DNA from: Polytrichum commune
Taxonomy: Eukaryota; Streptophyta; Polytrichopsida; Polytrichales; Polytrichaceae
NCBI GenBank assembly: GCA_950295325.1
Contig: OX485803.1
Span: 56,311,554 to 56,375,553, forward strand
DNA length: 64,000 nt
Reading direction: 5' to 3'
Shown here piece by piece: positions 21,801 through 50,096 of the stretch. The notes under the pieces were generated by a model. That model searched no databases and was not told where the DNA came from. It was given only the letters and a program-made list of their open reading frames with translations. The number at the start of each line of letters is the position of its first letter. Positions within the stretch are counted from its first letter, which is position 1. The translations under genes and the position numbers were made by a program.

Positions 21801-22348
21801 AAAAATTGCAGTGACTTGGACAATATAAGTAATGGAAGGGCACAAACAAATGGGCCATTTTTGAAATTTAAGTAATTATAGGGAGGCTTTAATTCAACCC
21901 TTGAAGGTAAATAGCCCCAAAACAAAAAACCCCCATCCGCACGTGGTGCACAAAAATGCCTTAGAGTGATCTACCCGTGATAACACCCCTTCTTGAACTC
22001 ACGTTAGTTTGTACATGGTATGAAGAGTCCACCTCCTGGGAGCAATTGCCAGCAGTAGCATGTGACAACAATGGTGAGAGTGATGGAAGTAAAGGTAGAT
22101 GTACAAAAGGACCAAGGGCTAAATTAAAGAAACCGGCACGCGTGCATTTTTGTTGTTGGAAAGAGCGTGGTGAGCAGATTGGAGAGCCAATCACCTTTAC
22201 CGATTAATTTCAAACCAAAACCTTGCAAACTTCCTTGTAATGGTCTTACGATGTCCTTTTCTTTGTGACTAATTCTTGTTGTTGTGTGTGACTGCTCATC
22301 TTGAGAAATGGAGGGTCAAGGTTAAATTGGTCGCTGTAAACGATGCCC

Positions 22349-22413
22349 TGGGAGTGCTATCTTATGAGTGGTGAGCGATGAGCGGTAACTTATGAGCAGT
22401 GAGGAAGATGAAA
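22349..22413 (+). repeat. Left terminal inverted repeat and subterminal motifs
   Basis: TGGGAGTGCTATCTTATGAG is followed by GTGAGCGATGAGC and TTATGAGCAGTGAGG. The TGAGCRR heptamers are inverted relatives of the GCTCAYY repeats at the right end and are candidates for transposase binding sites. Confidence 0.85.
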
Positions 22414-25400
22414 ATTTTGGTAATAGGACCACCAATATCCTATAACCGTGGAATTGTGGCCTTAAAAATGATGATTTTAGGGTTTAGTAATAAGAGGGTT
22501 GAGAAGGATAAACAACATGAAGTCCAAAAATTTATTCATCAGTAGTAGCACTAGACATGAAACTATCTTTTGCCTCGTCATCTATATATATTCGAGCACC
22601 TTTGCATTGCGAATTGATTTTGGAACTATAGCAAGATTCTTCATTTGGATCCGAATCTTCGAGATTCAACATTGCAATTGCAACATTCTCGGCATATGAT
22701 GGGAGACGCGGGCTACGGCTTGGACTTCGTAGGAATTGTCTATATGCCCAAAACGGGAGACATGTCCTCTTTCCAATCGTATTCCTGAAATCAAATCGAT
22801 GAAACATGTAAATAATGTGAAGAAATAAAAATGAACCAATGAATTGAATGAAACGAATGAATTGAATAAAAATTTATTGTATTAAAACTTACTCACACTC
22901 AAATTCAAGCATCTCCTCATCCGAGAGGTCATCATCTTCTTTTGTGAGATCTTGTATATTCTCCTTAGATGACCCCTCTTTCAAAACGTTTTCCAAAAGC
23001 GGTTTCAATATGTGCTCAAATATGTCATTATCACCCTCAAATGCAAGAAGATGTCTGCCACATGCGCGTGTTGCTAGGATAGAAGCTCCAGTGGAACATG
23101 TCAAATCAACAACGCGTCCATTCGACGGTGTAAACAATTCAATAAGATCTTGAAAAAAACGCGGCGATTTTTTATATGGCCCCCTCCAAGGTCTTCCCGA
23201 TTTTTGAAGAAGCATGTTTTTTTCATCCACAAAATTGAAAAGCAAGTTTTTGCTTTTCAATCCAGTGCCAAAAAAAGTGGAGTTTGGTTGTCTCGTGAAT
23301 TTTGTGGTAGTAAAATTCCATACCAAGACATGAGCCATAAATGCCGGAGTCTACAAAAAAATGTAAATTATGTTAAAACTATATAGAATGCAAATAACAC
23401 CAAAATAATTAAATAAAAACAATTGTGATGTGTTATACTTACGGTGTAGGTTGGAGACTCCGGATCCTTGAACACCATGTACGAATTGAGGTAAATAAAA
23501 GTCCTAAGAACTTTCATGTTGCCGTTGTGTAAGGTTGAATTCAAAACCTTCTTGGTTTGCATATCGATAGCAGAAAATACTATGAGGACGCCATCATCAG
23601 ACAAGATGGACTTGCACAAGGACATTGTTGCAACCATCCAGTTCTTGTCATATTTATTCCAAAGAGGAATTTCAGCAGGTCTATTGGAGAGGTTGAAGTC
23701 AAGACCGTCGGGAAATTGGAGAAAAACAAGGTCAACGGCAAAGGGAGTCGGACTTCCCATGACATGAAATTCGCGATTGTCATTGAACTGAAATACCACA
23801 ACATATCACAATATAAGACACAAAATAAAACCCAAATGAAAGTAAGAACATTAGAGAAAATACCAAAACAATAATTATACTTACGTTTTCAATAAATTCC
23901 CGCCATTGGATCCACTTAGGAGGGCCTACATCCACCCCTTCAGACTTGTTCTTGACAGCAGTAGATCAAGCAAATGAGAGCGTGAGAAAGTTCTTCAGTA
24001 TGAATAACTCTTTTCTTAAAATATCCGTTGGCGCACGATGAATAGCGTCATAGGTACTAGAGTAATGAAATTCCAATACATCGCATCTAGACTTTGAACT
24101 TTCGCCTCCAAGTGGATTCTTATCCAAATCATTGGAAAGAACAAGCAATTCTTCATGTTGTGAAATCTCCGATTGATCTTGTATTTTGGTTTCAGGAACA
24201 TGTTTCCTCTTACGATGTTTTGTCTCTTTTGGTTCTGGCTCTCTAAGTTTAAGCTGCACAATTTGTGCTTGCAAAATTGCAGTATCACGAGGATCCACAT
24301 TTTTAGCATCATTTATCTGACAGATTGTTTTCTCACTTCACGGACATACATCCTTAGGACAATCAAAATACCAACCACAATCCTCATAGTGTGGGAGCGA
24401 CGAATCCAAACAAATCTCAGTAGTGAACATGCATGAATCTCCTGCACCAGTGTCATGCCAATTTGGGAAAAAACGAGGTTCCCCTATAACGCATTTATGT
24501 GGAATCAAAACATATCGAAAATACCTACACACAAAAATATTGTAAGTCAAATATTTCATGACAATTTGACAAATGGAATCAAAAAATCAAAAAATAATAA
24601 GATTAGGTTGTACCTGTATAATACACGTTTCATAGCAAGATCAATATTAGGTTGCTCATCCCAACCGTTGTGTTTTTTAACTTTTCCGCTTTGGAATTCA
24701 CGATAGAATATTGAATTGAAAGCCGCAAACTTCCAGGTTTGGATATACTCGGAGAGAGTAGATACATCTGCAGGCAACTGAAGAGGAGATGAAAGAATAC
24801 TTTGAAGCTCTTCGATAGCCTTTTTTTCCAACTGTACCCAATATGTAGATTTTGATAACCAATCATCAAGTGCAGAATCAGAGAGGGGCGATTTCGGAAA
24901 ATGCAATGTATCTTTGTCAAATCTATTGCCATTTCAAAGCTTGAGCCATCCAACTTTGACTTCTGCATCCACATTACTCACAGCAACACGATGAAGTTTC
25001 TCTTATAGCATTTCAGGCACCGAAAATGAACCCCAATGGCGCTTAACTTCTTCAAGGAAAGCAGAGATAAGGTTGATGTCGGCAATCGCTAGTTGTTTCA
25101 TAAAACTAGAAGATAACATTGCACGTTTTTTGTTGACAGCTGCAAACATTGCTTTTGAAACTCCGTCTGATGTCCGTTCAAGAGGATGAGTTTCATTATA
25201 CTGGTTGAGAGCAATATCGTTAGCCTCAGCAAGTTCTTGCTGAAAAATCAAACAAAAGTCAATATTTATAAGTACATATAGATGTAATGTAAAATGAAGA
25301 TGAATAAACATAAGGCACATATTAGCAATGGTAGAAGAACTTACACTGTACATGTAATCCAAAAAAATTGGTCGTCTCAAAGAATACCAAGTTTCGACGG

Positions 25401-26573
25401 ACTTCTCCTCACATCGTTTATAACTCTTTGGATCCAGTTGTTTTCTGAAGGAAGTCAAAGGCATGGTGCCAATACTTTGCATCCGATATAAAGTATGCAC
25501 CAAATTGGTGGATACGTGAGAATTATCGGTTGACATGAAAAAAACATTAAATTGATTAGATTTATGATGATATAATTTGGAAAAAAAAATATAAACTAGA
25601 AATAAGTGTAAAAAATATGTAAGAACATTACTTGTTGATGTCATGTATAGCAGTCAACAAACTTGAAATGTCGTCAGGCTCGGACGCCAAAATGATAAAA
25701 TTCACAAAGACATGACGTTCATAATCTTCGGTATATACGCGGTCAATATAATTTCTCCAAGCAAAAAATCTGTGATTTCCATCCCATATAAAAAACATCT
25801 TGTTCTTGTATGACGTCAATGACAAATCTGTATCCAATTGAGATTCAAACAGGGCATTGGCTTGAGCCCAATTTGGGCTCCAAGATGCGCGAACCTCATC
25901 ATCCACGAATTGAAAGTTTCCCTTAGAATCGGTGGCCGATATATAAAACACACGGTCACCATCACGATAACCATTGAAAAAATCAGCCTCCAATTTAGTA
26001 ATGTCACCCTTCAAAGCAGGACGCACAATCGGCATATGAACCATGCGACATAAGGGTACACGCAAGCGAGCATTAGGTCCAGCACGGATTGAGGAAATTG
26101 TGGAAGTGGAATTGACCTTTCGTTTGTTCGTAAGCTCCCACACTTTCTCTTGATAAGTTTTATTGTCACTATCATTCTCTTCATCCGAGTCAAAATCATC
26201 GAGGGATTCATTTATTTTTTTCTTTTTCTTATTATGAAGATTCAACGATATGTCCTGATGATGATGAACTTGTTGAGATGGACGATCTTAAATTGAATGC
26301 ATTATGGAATCATCATCAGTAGAAATAGGAGTCGTTCTCTCCAAATCCATTGATTGGTCCTAAAACAAATGAAATAAGTTTCATAAATATTTCAAAACCA
26401 GTAGCAACACATTAGCAATAACATTCCAAAAACAACAGCAATAGCAACAACAATAGCAACAGAATACCACGAACACAGGGAAAAATGACAAAAATTATTC
26501 TAGACAATGCCATTTGCACCTTTAAATATTGTACGATTAGGGTGGCCGTTCAACCCAAAACTACAAGGGCAGA

Positions 26574-26595
26574 CCCTGTGCGTTAACGCACAGGG
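26574..26595. repeat. Solitary palindrome of the 64-bp-array type
   Basis: A perfect palindrome with half-site CCCTGTGCGTT and its reverse complement, identical to the core of the array at 27960-28525 and lying just before the 32-bp array. Confidence 0.9.
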
Positions 26596-26631
26596 TCTGT
26601 GTGTCCAACTACAGGTCTACCAAAGTTGGGT

Positions 26632-27142
26632 GCGACGTTTGGTTCGAACGACCCAAACTATCCACGCGGTTTCGATCGAGCGACCTAAACCGCCTACAAC
26701 CAGTTTGGGTCGACCGACCCGAACTGTGAGCATGGTTTGGGTCGAACGACCCAAACCATGCTTACAGTTCGGGTCGGTCGACCCAAACCATGCTCACAGT
26801 TTGGGTCGGTCTACCCAAACTAGGCAAACAGTTTGGGTCGTTCGACCCAAACTATGAAGACAGTTTGGGTCGTTCGACCCAAACCATGCTCACAGTTTGG
26901 ATCGGTCGACCCAAACCATGCTCACAGTTTGGCTCGGTCGACCCAAACTAGGCAAACAGTTTGGGTCGTTCAACCCAAACCATGCTCACAGTTCGGGTCG
27001 GTCGACCCAAACCATGCTCAGAGTTTGGGCGGTCGACCTAAACTAGGCACACAGTTTGGGTCGTTCGACCCAAACTATGCAGACAGTTTGGGTTGGTCGA
27101 CCCAAACTATGCTCACAGTTTAGATCGACCGACCCAAACTGT
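26632..27142. repeat. Array of about 16 palindromic units, 32-bp period
   Basis: Each unit contains half-site GTTTGGGTCG, a 2-base centre, then CGACCCAAAC, followed by a 10-base linker such as TATGCTCACA. The period is 32 bp. The 2-base centre varies (TT, GT, AC, AA) while the halves are conserved, and linkers fall into a few types (CATGCTCACA, TAGGCAAACA, TATGCAGACA). Each unit keeps two or three CpG sites. Two further units occur at about 31798-31855 inside the transposase gene. The constant halves with a free centre indicate binding sites for a dimeric protein. Confidence 0.9.
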
Positions 27143-27375
27143 CCGCAATTTACGCCTGATTATGCGCAATTACCCAGTCATCACGAAAGTGCAAACAAAT
27201 TTTGTATTGCACCTGTAGATGAGAGAGCTTGCAGCGACGAGCTCAGGTCCGACAGATGAGAGAAAAAAGACTGAATGCTTTGGGGGTGTGGCAATTCATA
27301 CTACTCGTCCCTGCTGCCATATTTAGTGTGGCTCTTCGTGGCCCCGCATAGCCGCTAGAAAATTGCCAGCGTAGA

Positions 27376-27502
27376 CCCTGTGCGTTAACGCACAGGGTCT
27401 ACTTGCCTAACTTTGGGAAGCCTCTAGCTAGGCAAGTAGACCCTGTGCGTTAACGCATACACCCTGTGCGTTAGTGCATAGACCTTGTGCATTAACGCAC
27501 AT
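27376..27502. repeat. Four clustered palindromes of the CCCTGTGCG type, three decayed
   Basis: One perfect copy at 27376-27397 is followed, from about 27440, by three degraded copies (CCCTGTGCGTTAACGCATA, CCCTGTGCGTTAGTGCATA, CTTGTGCATTAACGCACA) without the 64-bp linker. Confidence 0.85.
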
Positions 27503-27959
27503 AGCCGAGACATGAATTTGAAAAAAAAAAAAAAAAATTAATTTTTTTTAGAAGTCTGAAATTGGTAGATTTGCCAAAACTTGTAAAATCTGAAAAAAAT
27601 GCTAATGGGGTTACAAAAAAAAAACAATATGCTATATTATCTAAATATCCGTAGCTACAAATTCTTCTCATATTTTGTTTTGGTTTGAAATCATTTTCTT
27701 TTCTAATTCTTCTATCTATTTCCTTCTTTTGGGCCACCTCGTAAATTTTGGGTTTCGGGGCAAAAAAAAAAAATGCTATTTTGTGTCATTTTCTAGCTCC
27801 TATAACGTATTGCATGAATACTTGAATAGACATATTTCTCATTTCTTGCATTCTAACCCCGTTTTCAATAGGTTTTTTTGCTCCTACACTCTGCACATTG
27901 ATTTAAATTCATACAATAGATATTTGTTTTACTTTTAGGCTCTCCTAGTCGTTTTACCT

Positions 27960-28525
27960 CCCAACTTTGGCCTTCCTAAGTTGCGCTTACAAATCCTGTG
28001 CGTTAACGCACATGGTTTATCCTCCCAACTTTGGTCTTCCTAAGTTGCTCTTACAAACTCTGTGCGTTATTGCACAGGGTTTCTCCTCCCAACTTTTTGC
28101 CTCCTAAGTTGCTCTTACAAACCCTGTGCGTTATCGCACAGGGTTTCTCCTCCCAATTGTTTGCCTCCTAAGTTGCTCTTACAAACCCTGTGCGTTATCG
28201 CACAGGGTTTTTCCTCCCAATTGTTTGCCTCCTAAGTTGCTCTTACAAACCCAGTGCGTTAACGCACAGGGTTTCTCCTCCCAACTTTTTGCCTCCTAAG
28301 TTGATCTTACAAACCCAGTGCGTTAACGCACAGGATTTCTCCTCCCAACTTTTTGCCTCCTAAGTTGCTCTTACAAACCCTGTGCGGTAACGCACAGGGT
28401 TTTTCCTCTCAATTTTTTGCCTCCTATGTTGCTCTTATAAACCCTATGCGTTAACGGACAACATTTGTAAGAGCAACTTAGGAGGCAAAAAGTTGGGAGG
28501 AGAAACCGTGTGCGTTCTCGTCTTG
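27960..28525. repeat. Array of eight palindromic units, 64-bp period, plus one inverted unit
   Basis: Each unit is a palindrome (half-site CCCTGTGCG, 4-base centre, CGCACAGGG) joined by a 42-base linker containing TTTGCCTCCTAAGTTGCTCT. Repeat starts at about 28148, 28212 and 28276 give a 64-bp period. Centres are TTAA, TTAT or GTAA. After the last forward unit (about 28441) the linker appears in the opposite orientation at 28461-28500. CpGs in the half-sites are mostly intact. Confidence 0.9.
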
Positions 28526-28987
28526 ACTTCTAGCCTTCCTAAATTTCTGTTATATACAATGTGCATTAACGTATAGGGTTTCTCCTCTCCAATTTATAAC
28601 CTCTATAAATTGCTACTACATGACATGTGAATGAACGTACAAGGTTCTCTGTCCTAACTTACAACTTATGAACTATCAAATTATGTGAACGTTGAACGGA
28701 CTTACCTTTTTGTTTGTCGTCTTCTTTGAACCCGTCTTCAATTCGGACTCTGATATACGATCGTCTACATCTTTTTTGCTCTTTGCACCTTCATCATCCT
28801 CCACCGCATGAAAATCCAGTGTCTTCACAGTTTCTTCTACCGTACTCAACAAGTTTCTTTTCCCTTCCTTATTTGCATTCTTCTTTCCGACATTCAATCT
28901 GAACCTCTTTTTCTCGGAAGTGAAATACAAAGTTTTCCTACGTCTTCTCTTCGGCCTCACGGGTGTTCTCTCTACATTGTCCACCAT

Positions 28988-29509
28988 CGTTGGTGTCTAT
29001 GATATGTTTTCTATCAGGTACTATCATTTATTCTTTCAATGTATCTATCTCACAAAATCCGGCGTATATTACGATCACATGTTGTAATTGGCGTTCAATG
29101 AACGAGATATTTCGACGCGTTTGTCATTATGTGTTTATTTTTTGTATATCCGCCAAAATTTTCTGACACCTACTTTGTTCTATTCATAATGATCAATAAT
29201 TTATTTTTCCAACCAATTTTAATTCTTTCTACATCTACGTCAGTCCACACATATATATTTTAAATTTCTACCAATACTTTTAGTATTTGACGCCATTTTG
29301 TGTATATCTTGCTCGTAAATATTCTCTGATTATTATTGTGCTTTGTCCACTTCTGTATTATTAGATGTTATGTATCACATGCTTTCATCTCCATCCATTA
29401 TTGTATCACACGTTTTCATTTCCATTTATTTCCTTACACAATTCTATACAAAAGCAACATTCACCCCATATTTTTGTAATGTGTTGTTCATATGTTCTTT
29501 TGATTTTCT
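28988..29509. promoter_or_regulatory. Divergent promoter region of the two transposon genes
   Basis: This approximately 520-bp AT-rich interval separates the first codon of the minus-strand gene (28987) from the first codon of the plus-strand transposase (29510). Both transcription starts should lie in it or be shared by it. I could not identify TATA elements with confidence, and no palindrome of either array type is present here. Confidence 0.45.
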
Positions 29510-32500
29510 ATGGCTACCATTAGAGCTCATGGATCTTTTGTTCCCTTCATCTTGCCACTCCAAGATGATGGTCATGTGAGTGTTTCAGAGGATTTACTTA
29601 GTTTGAGATTCAACCTCCAGATAGGAACTATGTATTTAGAGCATGAGATGTACTCTGCAGATGGAGAGGTGTATGAAACGATTTTGGTTCCAAAAAATAG
29701 AACTGATGTTGGTTTTATGTGGATCTTAGGACCTGGTTCATTTAGGGTGATAGGACTTTCTGAGTCTCATATGCAAGCTTCAACTGTCATTTTGACAAAT
29801 GAATCCGGTACATCCACAGTTCAAATTCCCTCTATCGCACCTGTTAAGGTGGAACCCCCTTGATGATAGTGTGTTTGTGCTATCAGATTCAGAAGATGAC
29901 ATTTGTGCATTTGTTGATCTTTAAAACACATCGCCATTTCCATTTAGAAGTGTTCATTCTACTCCTTTCCAACTTCCTATACATGTAGCCAAATCCCCTT
30001 GCGGTCTTATGTAAAAGAAGGTGGTTCCCCAAATCTCACCTTCTCAACGTCCTCCACTACACCCTTCACCTTCATTTACAGGGTTGACTATGGTTGATGC
30101 CTTGAAACTGACAAAGTCAAGAAAAAGATCAAAGTCCGATCTTGCATTCATTGATTTTGACAGTATAGATGTTCGTGAAGTCAAGTACTTACCATGTTCT
30201 TTTAATGGTGATGTTTTGTTTCTCTTGCCTCCTGTGGCACTCAAAGCTTCAAGTACGTATGGTCGTTCAATGGACAGCATGGACAAGATGTGCGACGGTC
30301 ACCCTTGGTGCACCACCAAAACCACGAATATCCAAAATGACTTTGGACTGTCCTTCCGGCGCTCTACTTGTGCTGGTCATCTCCAATGTCATAATGACTA
30401 CTGTGATTACATGAATCGCAATGGGGGCCTCCGGAACAACACTGAATGGGCCGGTTCAACTTCTATCCCATTTGTTGTGGGTGTTGTTCCCCCTACTAAG
30501 TCCACTGTCGAGTGTAAGGTATGTCGTTCCACACCTGTGTGCATTGCTTTGTGTAATGCTCGAATCATATACATCCATTCCACATCCGTTGGAATGTCCA
30601 GGGCTTGCATTCATCTTGGTGTACATGATCACCCTGTCGCCATGGCACATGCCGTGAATCATTGGACATGGCATACCAATGCGTTGCAAATGAAGTATTG
30701 AAAACACCCACAACAAAAAATTCAGCCATAGTTATGGCGGCGAGCAAACAATTCTTGGCCGATTACCTTCTCAAATCTCCCGCAAATGTCGAAGGCCATC
30801 ACTTGGTTGGTTCATCCCTAGAGGTCGTCATGGACAAATTTAACACTCTTGCGTCTCCAAATTGTCGTAACTTTGTATCTGGATCAAAGCGTTTTTTGCG
30901 TAGTGAAATGGGAACTATAGATAGTATTATGGCGCTCAAAGACCACTCTGCTTTCAAATTCGTCCATGGTAGTCGGTTCCCAGGGCAGTTAAAGGACAAA
31001 GTGTTTGTTTTCAAGATGTCTGTAGACCTTCCAGGTAGTGGTGTGGAGCTTGTGAAGAGGATGCAAGTCGGTGGGGATATGGAGAATTCATGGATTATGT
31101 TTGACCATGTCAAACGTTTGAAGGATTGGACGACCATGGCTTGCCATGTGTACGACAGTCGATACTGTAAAGTGTTGACTATTGCGTGTTGTGACATGCA
31201 ATCTGAAGATGGCGTAGCACAAATTCTCTTTTGGGAAAATTTGAATGCTGTTATGGCAGAAAATGATGTACCAAACGTAAACTTCAAAGGGTTATAGCTG
31301 ATAGTGCTCAAGCTAATTGGAATGTGGTGAGGGCGATTTACGGGGATGGTGATCCAAGTCTACCCATGGTTGCACGTGAGCGTACATGTCTTTTCCATTG
31401 GTCCGCAAGCTTGAATAAGGTGACCCAAAAGTATATCAAACCATCCTTGCAATTTCAACACAAACAAATATGCAAGGATTACAAAGACGCGAAAACAATG
31501 GACGACGCTGAGACCAAGTACCATGTGATTCGTTCTTGGTGGTTGTCATCTAGAGCTACCTCCGAAGAAGGCATCCTTGGCCTTTCAGAGTAGTTGGGAT
31601 TTTGGCACTTTCGTTACAGATAATGGGGTGGCCATATCCTACTTGTAAGTACATATCAAACTTCATTACTCAATGTAATATATCTTATGTTTTTCTTATC
31701 TTTGTCTTTCTGTGTTCTTCATAGGATATGACAATAGAAGAGCGTGCGGGAATGCCAACATGCAACCTTGCAGAGACTGTATACAACAAACAACAAGCAG
31801 TTTGGGTCGTTCGACCCAAACGTGGCAACCATTTTGGGTCGAATGACCCAAACCTAGATATATAATCTATCTTATGTTTGTCTTATCCTTGTATTTGTAT
31901 GTTGTTCATAGGATATGACAATAGAAGAGCGTGCCGAAATGCCAACATGCAACTTTGCAGAGACTGTACACAACAAATGGCTCCAACAGTCCGGCAACAA
32001 GATGACTTGTTTATATGAAGCTACAGTGGACGACATGATCCGTGCCTTCATGCAAATTGCAAATTACCGGACATGGTTGAAAGGGGGGTATGATGGTAAA
32101 GGTCCTGATTCGGCCTCCTTGAAACTCAAAGCAGCTGCCAGGTGTGGAGATCCAAAAATGTTGGCTGATGCCATGAAGTCTTACCTAGGGGCAGAAGACG
32201 TCAACACTAGAGATTGTGCATTGGAAGGGTCAGAACTCTTTGGTTCCACCAAACGCAAACTCAACCTACCACCGGGTGCTGATTGTGACTCTCATCGACC
32301 CGACAAAGTGAACTATTCCATTCCTCGTCCCAACACTCGAGGAACTCGTCAACGCATAGAGGAATCGTTGAGTTCTGCAATTCATGATGTGGCTCATACT
32401 ACATCCGTGTTAGAGACTGATTGTCTTGCTTCTAAGTGGCACATTGCAAGATTGCCACCCAACTCAGCCAAACGTTGTTGGGCACTGTAGGCCATTACAG

Positions 32501-33280
32501 GGACTATGTGCAATGCGAAAGTCGGGACTGGGAAACATGGCACACCTACTCCAACATACAAAGGGCTCAGGAAGGAATTTTGCTCTCCCAACAATGTGGA
32601 GTATGAATTTTGGTTTTGTTTTGACGACATCAAACGTTGTGTGAGTGGCAGTAAGAAGAAATATATGTTGGATTGGCCTATAGTACCCAACACGTGGCCA
32701 GTGAAGATAGGTACCAATCTATTGAGAGAGGAGGTTTTGGCACTTGAAGATGTTGGATTTCAACTACAGCAGAGGGAGGCATTGTCTCCTCGTCATAGGC
32801 TTTCAACAATTGCAACTCTTCCCATCCCTCGCTCACATTTTTCTATACCACCAAACCCGGACGCCCACCCTACATTCAGATTTGGGAAGACAGTGCATCG
32901 TAATCCAACAGCACCTCTAGCGGATCACAAAAACAAATGGGAGAGCGCCGGACTCATGGAAGGTTACTATGTGGTTGGGGTCACTGCCATTCCATATCCG
33001 GGCTTTGGAGTGATAATCAACATTGTCTCCAAGCAAGATATCACCTACCATGTCACAATTGGCGATATCCCGCATTGCACATGTCTAGATTTCACGAAAA
33101 TGTCCTCTCATACATTGGGAAAAAAAAAGAAAATAGGTGTATTGTAAACATCTTTATTATGTGTTTAGATTTTTGTGCAAGGTGGATTACGAGAGTGATA
33201 AGTTCATTCATGCACCTACATATACCTATAATGAGGTCATGCGACTACTTGAACTTGCTGGTATTGTAGAATGTGAGTAG
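29510..33280 (+). pseudogene. MULE-like transposase, decayed
   Basis: From ATG 29510 (MATIRAHGSFVPF) the N-terminus runs to VKVEPP. After a frameshift near 29855 it continues as LDDSVFVLSDSEDDI. A Cys/His region at about 30290-30635 contains VECKVCRSTPVC and ends GVHDHPVA, matching the CxxC...HxH form of WRKY/GCM-type fingers. A frameshift near 30638 leads to NSAIVMAASKQFLADYLL, and the DDE-like core follows: CHVYDSRYCKVLTIACCDMQ, then (frameshift near 31288) IADSAQANWNVVRAIYG and ERTCLFHW at 31378-31401, the CxxH signature of MULE transposases. An intron with donor 31645 ends at an AG that is itself duplicated (31724 and 31911). The C-terminus carries a SWIM finger, CTC at 33076-33084 and CKH at 33143-33151, ending at TAG 33278-33280. 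Stops include 29922, 30012, 31591, 32488 and 33134. It would cut and join the element ends in the nucleus. Confidence 0.85.
31675..31977 (+). repeat. Tandem duplication of intron end plus exon start, with array palindromes at the junction
   Basis: About 115 bp covering the intron 3' end (TTCATAG) and the exon start GATATGACAATAGAAGAGCG occurs at 31675-31790 and again at 31860-31977, with about a dozen differences. Between the copies lie two units of the 32-bp array type (GTTTGGGTCG-TT-CGACCCAAAC and a decayed one). Only the downstream copy continues into NKWLQQSGNKMTCLYEA, so the upstream exon start is a dead end or an alternative acceptor. Confidence 0.85.
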
Positions 33281-33980
33281 TATTGCAAGTGCTCTATTAA
33301 GCAACATATATTTGAATGTCAATAAATGACATGTTTTGGTTTGGATTATTATAATAAAAATTAGCAGTGGATTGAAAGTATTTCAAATGATTCAGTAACT
33401 TCATTTTTATTTTGACTGCGACCCAACCATGTGTGATTTGATTGATTCACACGGATAAATAATAACACGTTTTCTGAAAATAAAAAATAATTAAGAAGAT
33501 TCTACGCACATCCGCGTAGTAACGTCTTCTTGGTATCCGCCTATAGATTAATCCTGCTTTATCACTAGCTCAATTTGGGATAGCACCAGTCAATGTAACC
33601 AACCGGATTCGAACCCGGGTTGATCCAGACCTAATACCAGTCTCTTACACAACTCGCATCCACAGGCGGATGTCTCAAAACCTAATAGCTACCTACATAT
33701 TCATTATTTCTAATATCTAATTTTCTTTCTTTTGTAGATTCTGGGCCTTTATTCAACCCGTGAGCAGTTTGAGTGGCTCACAATTATGGCACCGACATAT
33801 ATGTATAACGAGGTTATGCACTTACTTGAATTTGCTGGTGTTGTAGAATGTGAGTAGTTGTACAAGTGCTAGTTGTAGCTACATGTATAAGGATGTCAAT
33901 AAATGACAAGTATTGGTTTGAATTATTATAATAAAAATCAGCAATGGATTGAAAGTGTTCTAAATGATCCATGGAGATAG
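33210..33980 (+). repeat. Duplicated 3' end of the transposase gene flanking a SINE-like insert
   Basis: The last codons and 3' flank (CACCTACATATACCTATAATGAGG ... GGTATTGTAGAATGTGAGTAG ... AATAAATGACA ... TTATTATAATAAAAAT) at 33210-33400 recur at 33785-33980 with about 15% differences. The second copy is preceded by a pyrimidine-rich stretch ending TTTCTTTTGTAG, which resembles an intron acceptor, so it may have been an alternative last exon. Confidence 0.75.
33470..33672 (-). mobile_element. tRNA-derived SINE-like insertion
   Basis: On the minus strand, starting near 33672, the order is GATGCGAGTTGTGTAAGAGA (A-box-like), an anticodon-arm-like stretch, then CCCGGGTTCGAATCCGG (a good B box with a T-arm stem) about 45 bases later. 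Unrelated sequence follows, ending in a T-rich tail at about 33480-33500. The tRNA-like part lacks acceptor-stem pairing, so it is not a tRNA gene. A 3' T-rich end would fit Au-type plant SINEs, but I cannot confirm the family. No TSD was found. Confidence 0.55.
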
Positions 33981-34109
33981 GGCCCTTTCACTTGTGCTTC
34001 ATTTAAAATATTGGCAATTTACAATTGAAAATATGCAATTAATTTGTCAAAAATTTGGTTGTAAACCCTAAACCCGTGTGTCTTTACTAAATTTGGATTC
34101 ATTGCTCAT

Positions 34110-34187
34110 ATGTTACTGCTCATTGCTCATGTGTTACTGCTCACCGCTCACCGCTCACTGCTCATCGCTCATAAGATAGCTTCCCTC
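34110..34187 (-). repeat. Right terminal inverted repeat and subterminal motifs
   Basis: GCTCA-type heptamers (CTGCTCA, CCGCTCA, TTGCTCA) recur about eight times from 34117 to 34170, then CATAAGATAGCTTCCCTC ends the element at 34187. The outermost part is the inverted match of the left end. Confidence 0.85.
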
Positions 34188-35005
34188 AACGATGCCCCAA
34201 CCAAGGGGGGCAACCCGATGACAGAGGTTGGGGCGAACCAACCCGTACACTGGTTCCTTGGAGCATCCAACAAAGAACGAGTGAGTGTTTGGGTTAGTTC
34301 GCCCAAATCCAAGACAAAGAGGTTGGCAAGTTGTTCAATGCTTCCGTGGTGTTGTTTGGGTCCACCGGGTGCTCCCTTGATGAGAGTCCATGATGACCTC
34401 GAATGCGTTTTTTGGCAATGAATTAAGATCTTGTTTCATGTGTCTCAAAAGGGAAAGGAATGAGGGTGGTTTGTCATGGACAAAATTAGGTGCGGACAGG
34501 GAGACCATCCCTATCCGTATATCAATTGTCACCCTAAATAACACGATGGCGTGACTGGCCTCCATCATTCAGCTGCCAGGGATTTTGCCTCAGTCTATGT
34601 TTCTCTCTCTTGTCACCCAGAATTACTACGATTGTCACCACAGGAGCTTCGAAATCATGAGATTTGTCGACCTTTGGCTATGAAACGGAGCTGCTGCTGC
34701 TGGCTTGATAACGTCAAGTTGGAGGATTGTGCATGAAACCGGTGGAGAGGGAAGACAACATTTGAATCCCTTGGTGGGCCATTACCATGTCTGCAAAAGC
34801 TTTTGCAGTGGAAGGTGCGTTCAAGCTGTTGTCATGACACGACGCTCCTCAAGCAGGAACACAAAAGAACTCCTCACGTCACCGTGTTAAAGAGCCGACG
34901 TGCATGAGTGTGCATTTGGCCATCTAATAGTTATGGGCTTTGAATTACCTGCCTTAGGCAAGAACAGTTTTCAGATTGGATTGAGAGGTCATCCTTGAAG
35001 TATTA
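34188..35005. other. Flanking DNA right of the MULE
   Basis: Begins with the TSD copy. No recognised gene; the 103-codon frame crossing the TIR boundary at 34110-34421 cannot be real because it spans the insertion point. The stretch 34200-34330 is less AT-rich and has GGTTGGGGCGAACC and GGGTTAGTTCGCCC phrases loosely like the array half-sites, probably by chance. Confidence 0.45.
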
Positions 35006-49843: not shown

Positions 49844-50096
49844 CACTATATTCGTTAATTTGGGACTTTTTCGGCATTTCGAGACAGTTACAAATATAAG
49901 AACATGGATAAAATCACACAGATATTGGAGAATGTTGTAAGATGCAAATACTTTGAAGTGGGTATTCATATCAAGAACCCAATTAAGAACTCATATCAAG
50001 ATGGTTTAGGTAGGACGACCCAAACATTAGACCATGTTGTTGTGGTCCATATATTAATTTGAGACAAGAGAAAGTCTCAAATTAACGAATATAGTG
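49844..50096. mobile_element. CACTATATTCG-family MITE, copy 2
   Basis: CACTATATTCGTTAATTTGG at the left is mirrored by AAATTAACGAATATAGTG at the right. Length (253 bp) matches the other copies, but the interior is different. Confidence 0.8.

Follow-up and report, generated by a model that had tools for sequence, protein, structure and literature searches.

A putative ParB-methyltransferase-like self-recognition gene and family-specific palindrome arrays in a MULE-like transposon of Polytrichum commune

How a transposon might escape silencing without genome-wide deregulation is an open question, and to our knowledge few transposon self-recognition factors, such as the VANC proteins, are known. 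The locus considered here raises this question in a plant. It lies in a stretch of 64,000 nucleotides from Polytrichum commune (GenBank assembly GCA_950295325.1, contig OX485803.1, positions 56,311,554 to 56,375,553), which we call the window (C1:56311554-56375553 in an assembly of 408 Mb with 64 contigs, of which seven are large). Thirteen matches to the LOB domain, a plant-specific family, agree with a plant host. The original prediction was that a gene in this window encodes a ParB-like protein fused to a beta-class amino-methyltransferase, a prokaryotic module residing in a plant Mutator-like element (MULE). Part of this stands, in that the gene belongs to a transposon and its product has a relative among methyltransferases; on the other hand, a canonical methyltransferase is not supported, and the ParB and MULE assignments prove weak. 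We propose, at a probability of roughly 55%, that, of the two genes in a MULE-like transposon, this is the accessory one and encodes a self-recognition factor that binds the palindromes of its own element.

First of all, the gene lies within the ends of an element. The whole transposon spans 22348..34187 of the window (11,840 bp) and is decayed; its ends match the aligned ends of three other copies, L009, L019 and L020. Identical target site duplications, AACGATGCC, flank it at 22339..22347 and 34188..34196, and terminal inverted repeats are placed at 22348..22409 (plus strand, ParB-methyltransferase side) and 34126..34187 (minus strand, transposase side), their length being set by analogy and the window ends matched by eye. 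Of five elements, four (L009, L019, L020 and the window copy) have a perfect 9-bp duplication, which is not established for L010, and terminal inverted repeats of about 62 bp, 87–90% identical by BLAST, are found in L009, L010 and L020. A BLAST self-match of the repeats is absent in L019 and the window copy, though their end sequences are common to both.

The accessory gene occupies the minus strand, with exons at 28706..28987 (exon 1), 25632..26359 (exon 2, holding the ParB-like box DGNHR), 25345..25534 (exon 3), 24614..25239 (exon 4), 23885..24524 (exon 5), 23443..23787 (exon 6, which contains the changed motif IV, VDLVFLQFPDG), 22893..23350 (exon 7, encoding GPY(K/Q)KSP...VVDLTCSTGAS...AFEGD) and 22532..22784 (exon 8 and the stop codon). 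From 28987 to 22532 these eight exons join into one frame of 1,173 codons plus a stop, in which DGNHR falls at residue 287 and DLTCSTGAS at 1019; the eight-exon frame of about 1,173 residues that had been claimed could be rebuilt exactly, and it is far beyond chance. The protein has the ParB-like box first, then a long middle that is common to sister families, and at its C-terminal end a methyltransferase-like domain, in which we take the exon 7 segments GPY(K/Q)KSP and DLTCSTGAS to be motif X and motif I. Decay, on which the original prediction was silent, is evident in frame at residues 118 (position 26290, exon 2), 479 and 502 (25005 and 24936, exon 4), and 671 and 795 (24340 and 23968, exon 5), and the exon 3 acceptor has changed from AG to AT; with five in-frame stops and a broken acceptor, the window copy is dead. 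Divergent from it is the two-exon transposase gene (29510..33280, plus strand), which is also broken in this copy, with fragmented reading frames and an approximate end.

This dead gene is one decayed member of a repeat family. A genome search with the protein of exons 1 and 2 gave 128 matches, of which the best 60 besides the window are 81–94% identical and many are free of stops. The search scored only 126 of 1,421 first-look candidates, a few copies being counted as two matches, and the family, which we call A, may thus exceed the 128. For comparison we used 17 copies, 16 fetched and the window. The full 1,173 codons are open in four of them (L009, L010, L011 and L020), and every intron is GT..AG in L009 and L010; L011 is without the exon 8 acceptor and L020 without the exon 3 donor. 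The open-frame copy L020 also reads DGNYK in place of DGNHR, and with both changes it may be recently dead. Rates of nonsynonymous (dN) and synonymous (dS) change were calculated for the seven copies of exact length, in seven pairs, and L009 against L020 gives dN 0.028, dS 0.186 and a ratio of 0.15 (0.11 in the ParB part), which indicates that the protein has been kept by selection between diverged lineages. Synonymous divergence between these two copies is uneven, 0.46 in the ParB part and 0.05–0.06 across residues 830–1173, which suggests gene conversion or a common recent 3' end.

Furthermore, the gene is linked to its transposase in a constant geometry. A transposase match lies within 15 kb of 97 of the 128 ParB-exon matches, and all 97 of these partners are divergent, lying upstream on the other strand and in most cases at a distance of about 5 kb. 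When positions were randomised in 1,000 trials, a mean of 1.46 matches and at most seven were linked. The transposase list used here and below comprises the best 150 of 1,392 candidates, and on it a partner within 15 kb is missing for 31 of the 128 ParB-exon matches and for 56 of the 150 transposase matches, some of the latter being accounted for by the sister families B and C described below. Position inside the ends and 9-bp duplications, divergent linkage and purifying selection between diverged copies together bear out the claim of a second protein of a DNA transposon. Pack-MULE-type gene captures are common in plants, and the 31 matches away from a listed transposase could be read as a captured host gene fragment or a domesticated host gene; the single divergent geometry of all 97 linked matches, and the recurrence of the architecture in several diverged families, make this very improbable.

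A genome search with PF01555, the Pfam profile for N4/N6-methyltransferases, returned loci above its cut-off. Family B (L039-L041) is homologous to family A, being 36–41% identical to family A in the ParB exon and 23–31% in the methyltransferase end, and a search with the B domain recovered families C (L055), E (L059) and G (L056-L058 and L060). The transposase cores linked to B and C are 86–90% and 88–95% identical to that of the window over 110 residues, and despite these similar cores the ParB-methyltransferases and the palindromes differ among A, B and C. In family C a transposase match lies within 20 kb of 12 of 13 matches, always divergent; the farthest, at 19 kb, belongs to a family A element, leaving own partners for 11 of 13. 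In family B one is near 10 of 15, eight with the expected geometry at 9.5–10.1 kb and one on the same strand; for the match at C1:9410709 the expected partner is at C1:9420309, but a nearer neighbour was scored. The G element with fetched flank has a divergent transposase 45–47% identical to that of A, its first exon long and open, and in a small group with a 122-residue frame one of four matches has a transposase nearby among the best 150 of 1,392, on the same strand. Family B elements also encode a kinase-like frame (PF00069, E=1.1e-9, above cut-off, from a string joined over one stop), located at 1109-2218 of L040 in gene orientation and with further copies at C5:16869538, C4:20352809, C6:9379324 and elsewhere; it lies on the same strand, 4.3–4.9 kb upstream of the methyltransferase match in 11 of 13 cases, 2.0 kb in one, and one is without a partner.

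The families also differ in arrays of long, near-perfect palindromes within their elements, a feature that the original prediction did not mention. Family A carries two, A1, with core GTGCGTTAACGCAC in mostly 64-bp units, and A2, TTGGGTCGNNCGACCCAA, in mostly 32-bp units. In the window, 12 A1 sites (up to two mismatches, mostly 64 bp apart) occupy 26578..28459 and 14 A2 sites (up to two mismatches, mostly 32 bp apart) occupy 26639..27137, all in intron 1 of the accessory gene, and two further A2 sites lie at 31802..31851 in the transposase intron. The five elements mapped agree in this placement: the first intron of the ParB gene contains both A1 and A2, and A2 recurs within the transposase gene, at a place that is intronic according to the reading frames in L009, L020 and the window. 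The palindrome of family B is TTGTGCGCTNGCGCACAA and that of family C GTGGCCGTTAACGGCCAC; one G element has GGTGGTCGGACCCGACCACC and E a single GGTGCCGTTAACGGCACC, while L057 and L060 (family G, 3.0–3.5 kb) contain none of the family palindrome motifs. Palindromes with arms of at least nine number 3–18 per locus in families A and C, in one of the three B loci and in one G element, compared with 0 or 1 in any of ten shuffles. An explanation of the palindromes by hairpins or covariation found no support, as 3 of 145 changed pairs are complementary. Conservation of the A1 units is lower at the G/C positions 8, 19 and 21 (0.79, 0.62 and 0.66), which might reflect decay of methylated cytosines.

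The palindromes are private to their families. Exact A1 sites occur in 17 of 17 family A copies and exact A2 sites in 13 of 17; the diverged copies L021-L024 keep A1 and have no A2 site, so that the main subfamily may have acquired A2 later. No exact A site occurs in the B, C, E or G loci, nor in the window outside the element, and a count matrix contains no exact site of any family in the loci of another. With two mismatches allowed, A1 matches twice in L039, B matches once each in L015 and L017, and one A2-like site falls at 50006 of the window. The absence of a B site from L040 and L041 is due to the fetched pieces, which stop slightly before the sites. Genome-wide, the B palindrome occupies 36 distinct places, 35 of them in ten B spans and one beside an orphan B kinase fragment, and every span holds at least one; nine spans are bounded by listed transposase and methyltransferase matches and the tenth (C4:44.11 Mb) was extended by analogy. 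A1 has 502 sites; of the first 50, 45 are no more than 8 kb from an exon of family A, where 0.5% would be expected. The G palindrome has 49 sites in seven places, one of which was examined. Reversed, uncomplemented patterns gave zero matches in each of the four genome searches. C palindromes outside the listed C elements are often spaced 105 or 210 bp apart and perhaps belong to non-autonomous copies.

As the palindromes follow the accessory gene and not the transposase, the accessory protein is their putative reader. Many sites lie in the gene's own intron, so linkage explains part of the pattern; the second A2 array, in the transposase intron, argues for a reader acting in trans. It is doubtful that the arrays are hitchhiking minisatellites, unrelated to the protein and different between families since introns diverge fast. 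Tandem units of 32 or 64 bp in family A, their variable number, their location mostly within one gene and the few compensatory changes would all suit such an origin. It sits poorly, on the other hand, with the presence, far above shuffles, of palindromes with arms of nine or more in A, B, C and one G element, each in a sequence of its own, with the separate A2 array, and with palindrome columns that are better conserved than the spacer (0.941 versus 0.840, over 101 units in 14 of the 17 copies).

We thus favour self-recognition, in which the accessory protein would bind its own element's palindromes like ParB on parS. It would probably do so as a dimer, for which palindromic sites are suited. 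The bound protein would coat or mark the copies of its own element, and this marking may protect their expression or mobility from host silencing, in the manner of VANC proteins, or alternatively may make them recognisable to the transposition machinery. A more detailed form of this proposal is parS/ParB-like self-recognition with family-private palindromes, in which protein and palindromes are exchanged as a cassette between elements with similar transposases and the methyltransferase has been remodelled from base modification to another SAM (S-adenosylmethionine)-linked or DNA-clamping role; we hold it tentatively, at somewhat less than even odds. A direct part in transposition, in which the protein would serve synapsis, excision or insertion and the palindromes would be sites of complex assembly, appears quite unlikely. 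The divergent pairing with a transposase in A, B, C and one G element fits it; the arrays, however, are internal and intronic, away from the element ends, and the 31 ParB-exon and 56 transposase matches that are partnerless within 15 kb, although drawn from incomplete lists, do not sit easily with it.

The ParB assignment comes from the box and its surroundings. DGNHR is present in 14 of the 17 family A copies (the rest have DGNHK, DGNYK and DDNHR) and also in families B, C and G. The box is of the GxHR type, and hydrophobic and Ala positions follow it as in ParB. An hhalign comparison of eight family sequences with 14 ParB references gave E 0.0017 over 15 columns, reached in 0 of 200 shuffles. 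One G copy has a weak PHROG match to a ParB-like partition protein over the box (E 0.098). Pfam and NCBIfam, on the other hand, give no ParB match; the profile check that had been proposed, with PF02195, found nothing significant with the domains of families A, B, C and G, and tblastn of the ParB part against phages and plasmids returned chance-level matches or none. Across the genome PF02195 matches only the small contigs C10, C12 and C23, on which L033-L035, L037 and L038 carry intronless ParB, methyltransferase and ParB-methyltransferase frames above Pfam cut-offs; these contigs look bacterial- or phage-like by eye and are probably assembly contaminants. On the motif and the profile alignment, we treat the N-terminal part of the accessory protein as probably ParB. 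A Pfam match of the single window exons to NTR2, at E=0.009 and under the cut-off, falls on the low-complexity beginning of exon 2 and was judged to be chance.

The C-terminal domain is more firmly placed. Read from the DNA, two family B copies exceed the PF01555 cut-off of 26.7 bits (L041 at 35.3 bits over profile positions 163-216, L039 at 32.4 bits over 1-216), whereas family A reaches 22 bits as a cut-out domain and 15 bits as a whole protein, single window exons give E=0.14, and the E and G pieces have no Pfam match. With hhalign, eight sequences from five families match 11 methyltransferase parts of phage-type ParB-methyltransferases with a probability of 97.9% and E 3.8e-13 over 203 columns, reached in 0 of 100 shuffles; families A and B alone give E 1.8e-7. 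Among solved structures, phmmer finds DpnA as the best hit of the family A domain (E=1.1) and a methyltransferase as that of the family B domain (E=0.018), and the A plus B alignment finds DpnA at E=6e-4. In tblastn against phages and plasmids the methyltransferase end has weak methylase matches (best E 2e-3 and 2e-2), and the viral and genome collections searched contain no relative of the plant domains. The A plus B alignments used for the structure, viral and genome-collection searches deviate from the DNA at some residues (in two of five and two of four rows). Judged by this homology, the domain is descended from beta-class amino-methyltransferases, as had been predicted, and the predicted order of motif IV before motif I is correct.

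The motif IV itself, however, is not of the DPPY type. Canonical beta-class motif IV is (D/N/S)-(P/I)-P-(Y/F/W). The window reads QFPDG, as do 14 of the 17 family A copies, the other three having QFSDG, QCPDG and QFPNG; elsewhere the motif is DIPDG in B (DIPYG in one of three), DYPDG in C, EYPDG in E, and DLPEG and DIPEN in G. The aromatic residue is thus D or E in seven of the eight aligned sequences, and family A is also without the first acidic residue. As the acidic replacement of the aromatic residue recurs in families only about 20–40% identical, it looks ancient and maintained rather than a result of decay, and it makes activity doubtful. The copy with DIPY, L039, differs at this single residue from the DIPD of the other two B copies, and its motif I is also changed, to DLSVGTGAS. 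One could still suppose that the protein actively methylates DNA, at N4 of cytosine or N6 of adenine, and so marks its own element, the altered motif IV being functional or shifting specificity. Homology spans the whole domain, the first motif IV residue is acidic in the B, C, E and G rows, DIPY survives in one of three B copies, and in motif I the second glycine is present in all eight rows and the acidic residue after it in six of the seven rows that reach so far; a brown-algal relative is, moreover, predicted in the sections of PMC12477816 consulted to make N4-methylcytosine or N6-methyladenine. Yet family A, with the most matches here, has no canonical motif, and the replacement of the aromatic residue is nearly general, so that we regard this as unlikely. 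The pattern suggests instead a domain for DNA and perhaps SAM binding rather than for ordinary base methylation, above all in family A.

The class of the element itself is also qualified. Its size, terminal inverted repeats, SWIM-like finger and 9-bp duplication, the last within the MULE range of 8–11 bp, agree with MULEs, although the SWIM finger (PF04434) in the L009 transposase, E=0.076 and 13.0 bits, is below its cut-off of 19.6. That transposase has two exons of 712 and 455 residues, the exons being long and open in L009 and L020, and a candidate D-D-E triad, D-65-D-130-E in L009, whose three acidic residues and spacing are kept between families A and G. On the other hand, the Pfam MULE domain PF10551 has no match at the element transposase despite 142 matches genome-wide, and the hhalign score against three MULE proteins from the same genome was reached by 32 of 60 shuffles. 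We call the element MULE-like, since its ends and duplications fit and the Pfam MULE and hhalign tests do not.

Several observations weigh against self-recognition by a ParB-like reader. First, the ParB profile similarity is confined to 15 columns around DGNHR, the score with families A and B alone is reached by 3 or, with DNA-read rows, 7 of 200 shuffles, the ParB alignment retrieves from solved structures no ParB and only unrelated chains at E>0.1, and single-sequence structure prediction of window exon 2 has a mean pLDDT (predicted local distance difference test) of 38. Second, dN/dS is higher between recent copies, at 0.14–0.42 for the whole gene, and in the ParB part of two pairs 0.81 and 1.37, values that rest on few changes. 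Third, most A sites are located in the ParB gene's first intron and would travel with the gene even if functionless, paired compensatory changes are rare, and the C palindrome occurs at 143 places, many of the roughly 50 listed being outside listed C elements. Finally, among the best 150 of 1,392 transposase matches, none lies near the ten D or the ten E matches, and only two of ten G matches have one, one divergent and one on the same strand.

Comparable systems are known, as far as the sources consulted describe them. Sola1-1_Ec32 of Ectocarpus is a 21.5-kb DNA transposon that encodes, on the strand opposite its transposase, a 1,104-residue protein with ParB-like and N4/N6-methyltransferase parts; its authors suggest that proteins of this type may bind the element that encodes them and modify it, and refer to examples from green algae (Iyer 2011) and red algae (Petroll 2025) (PMC12477816, in the sections seen). 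ParB plus N4/N6-methyltransferase accessory proteins of transposons are, on that account, already known from a brown alga, with green and red algae cited. The plant element resembles Sola1-1_Ec32, likened by description only, in having a ParB-like and amino-methyltransferase accessory protein opposite its transposase, and differs in transposase superfamily and host lineage; the palindrome arrays, apparent module exchange and altered motif IV are plant features that those sections do not mention. According to the parts of PMC5735166 used here, the VANC proteins of Arabidopsis VANDAL MULEs act on family-specific short motifs, tandemly repeated in introns and upstream, with co-evolution of protein and motif, and the motif read by VANC21 has nine bases and is arrayed in a single orientation. 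The likeness, which is one of layout and description, extends to an accessory gene, family-private motifs, tandem intronic arrays and fast change; unlike VANC, the plant sites here are long palindromes and the protein resembles ParB-methyltransferases.

The nine phage ParB-methyltransferases compared (L045-L051, L053 and L054; 408–450 residues, DPPY in eight of nine) share with the plant protein a ParB box first and a beta-class methyltransferase last; the plant protein, on the other hand, has about 480 residues between the domains, QFPD or D/E-x-P-D/E in motif IV, and introns. MURB is a second gene beside a MULE transposase. Second genes of MULEs, such as MutB and the VANDAL genes, adjoin the transposase and are antisense to it in several groups (PMC6446971, as far as consulted), and the plant accessory gene resembles them in adjoining its transposase; the text of PMC6446971 contains neither 'ParB' nor 'methyltransferase'. 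Fusions of the ParB fold are discussed in PMC12704722, in the part consulted. The earlier statement that no plant transposon with this combination has been described holds as far as searched, with a brown-algal Sola analogue reported in the sections of PMC12477816 seen: among the top-ranked matches in the open-licence PMC literature no land-plant transposon with a ParB-methyltransferase appears, and Iyer 2011 or Petroll 2025 may hold a plant case. Within that search, what is new is the occurrence in a plant and in a MULE-like element, the arrays of private palindromes, the apparent exchange of the module between elements with similar transposases, and the altered motif IV.

Our findings add a plant genome to the algae in whose transposons ParB-methyltransferase accessory proteins are known, and suggest that the methyltransferase part may have lost or altered its chemistry. 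Matched protein families and family-specific palindromes within one genome make recognition and co-evolution testable. If the more detailed, cassette form of the proposal is correct, this self-recognition module would have solved the same problem as VANC a second time and independently.

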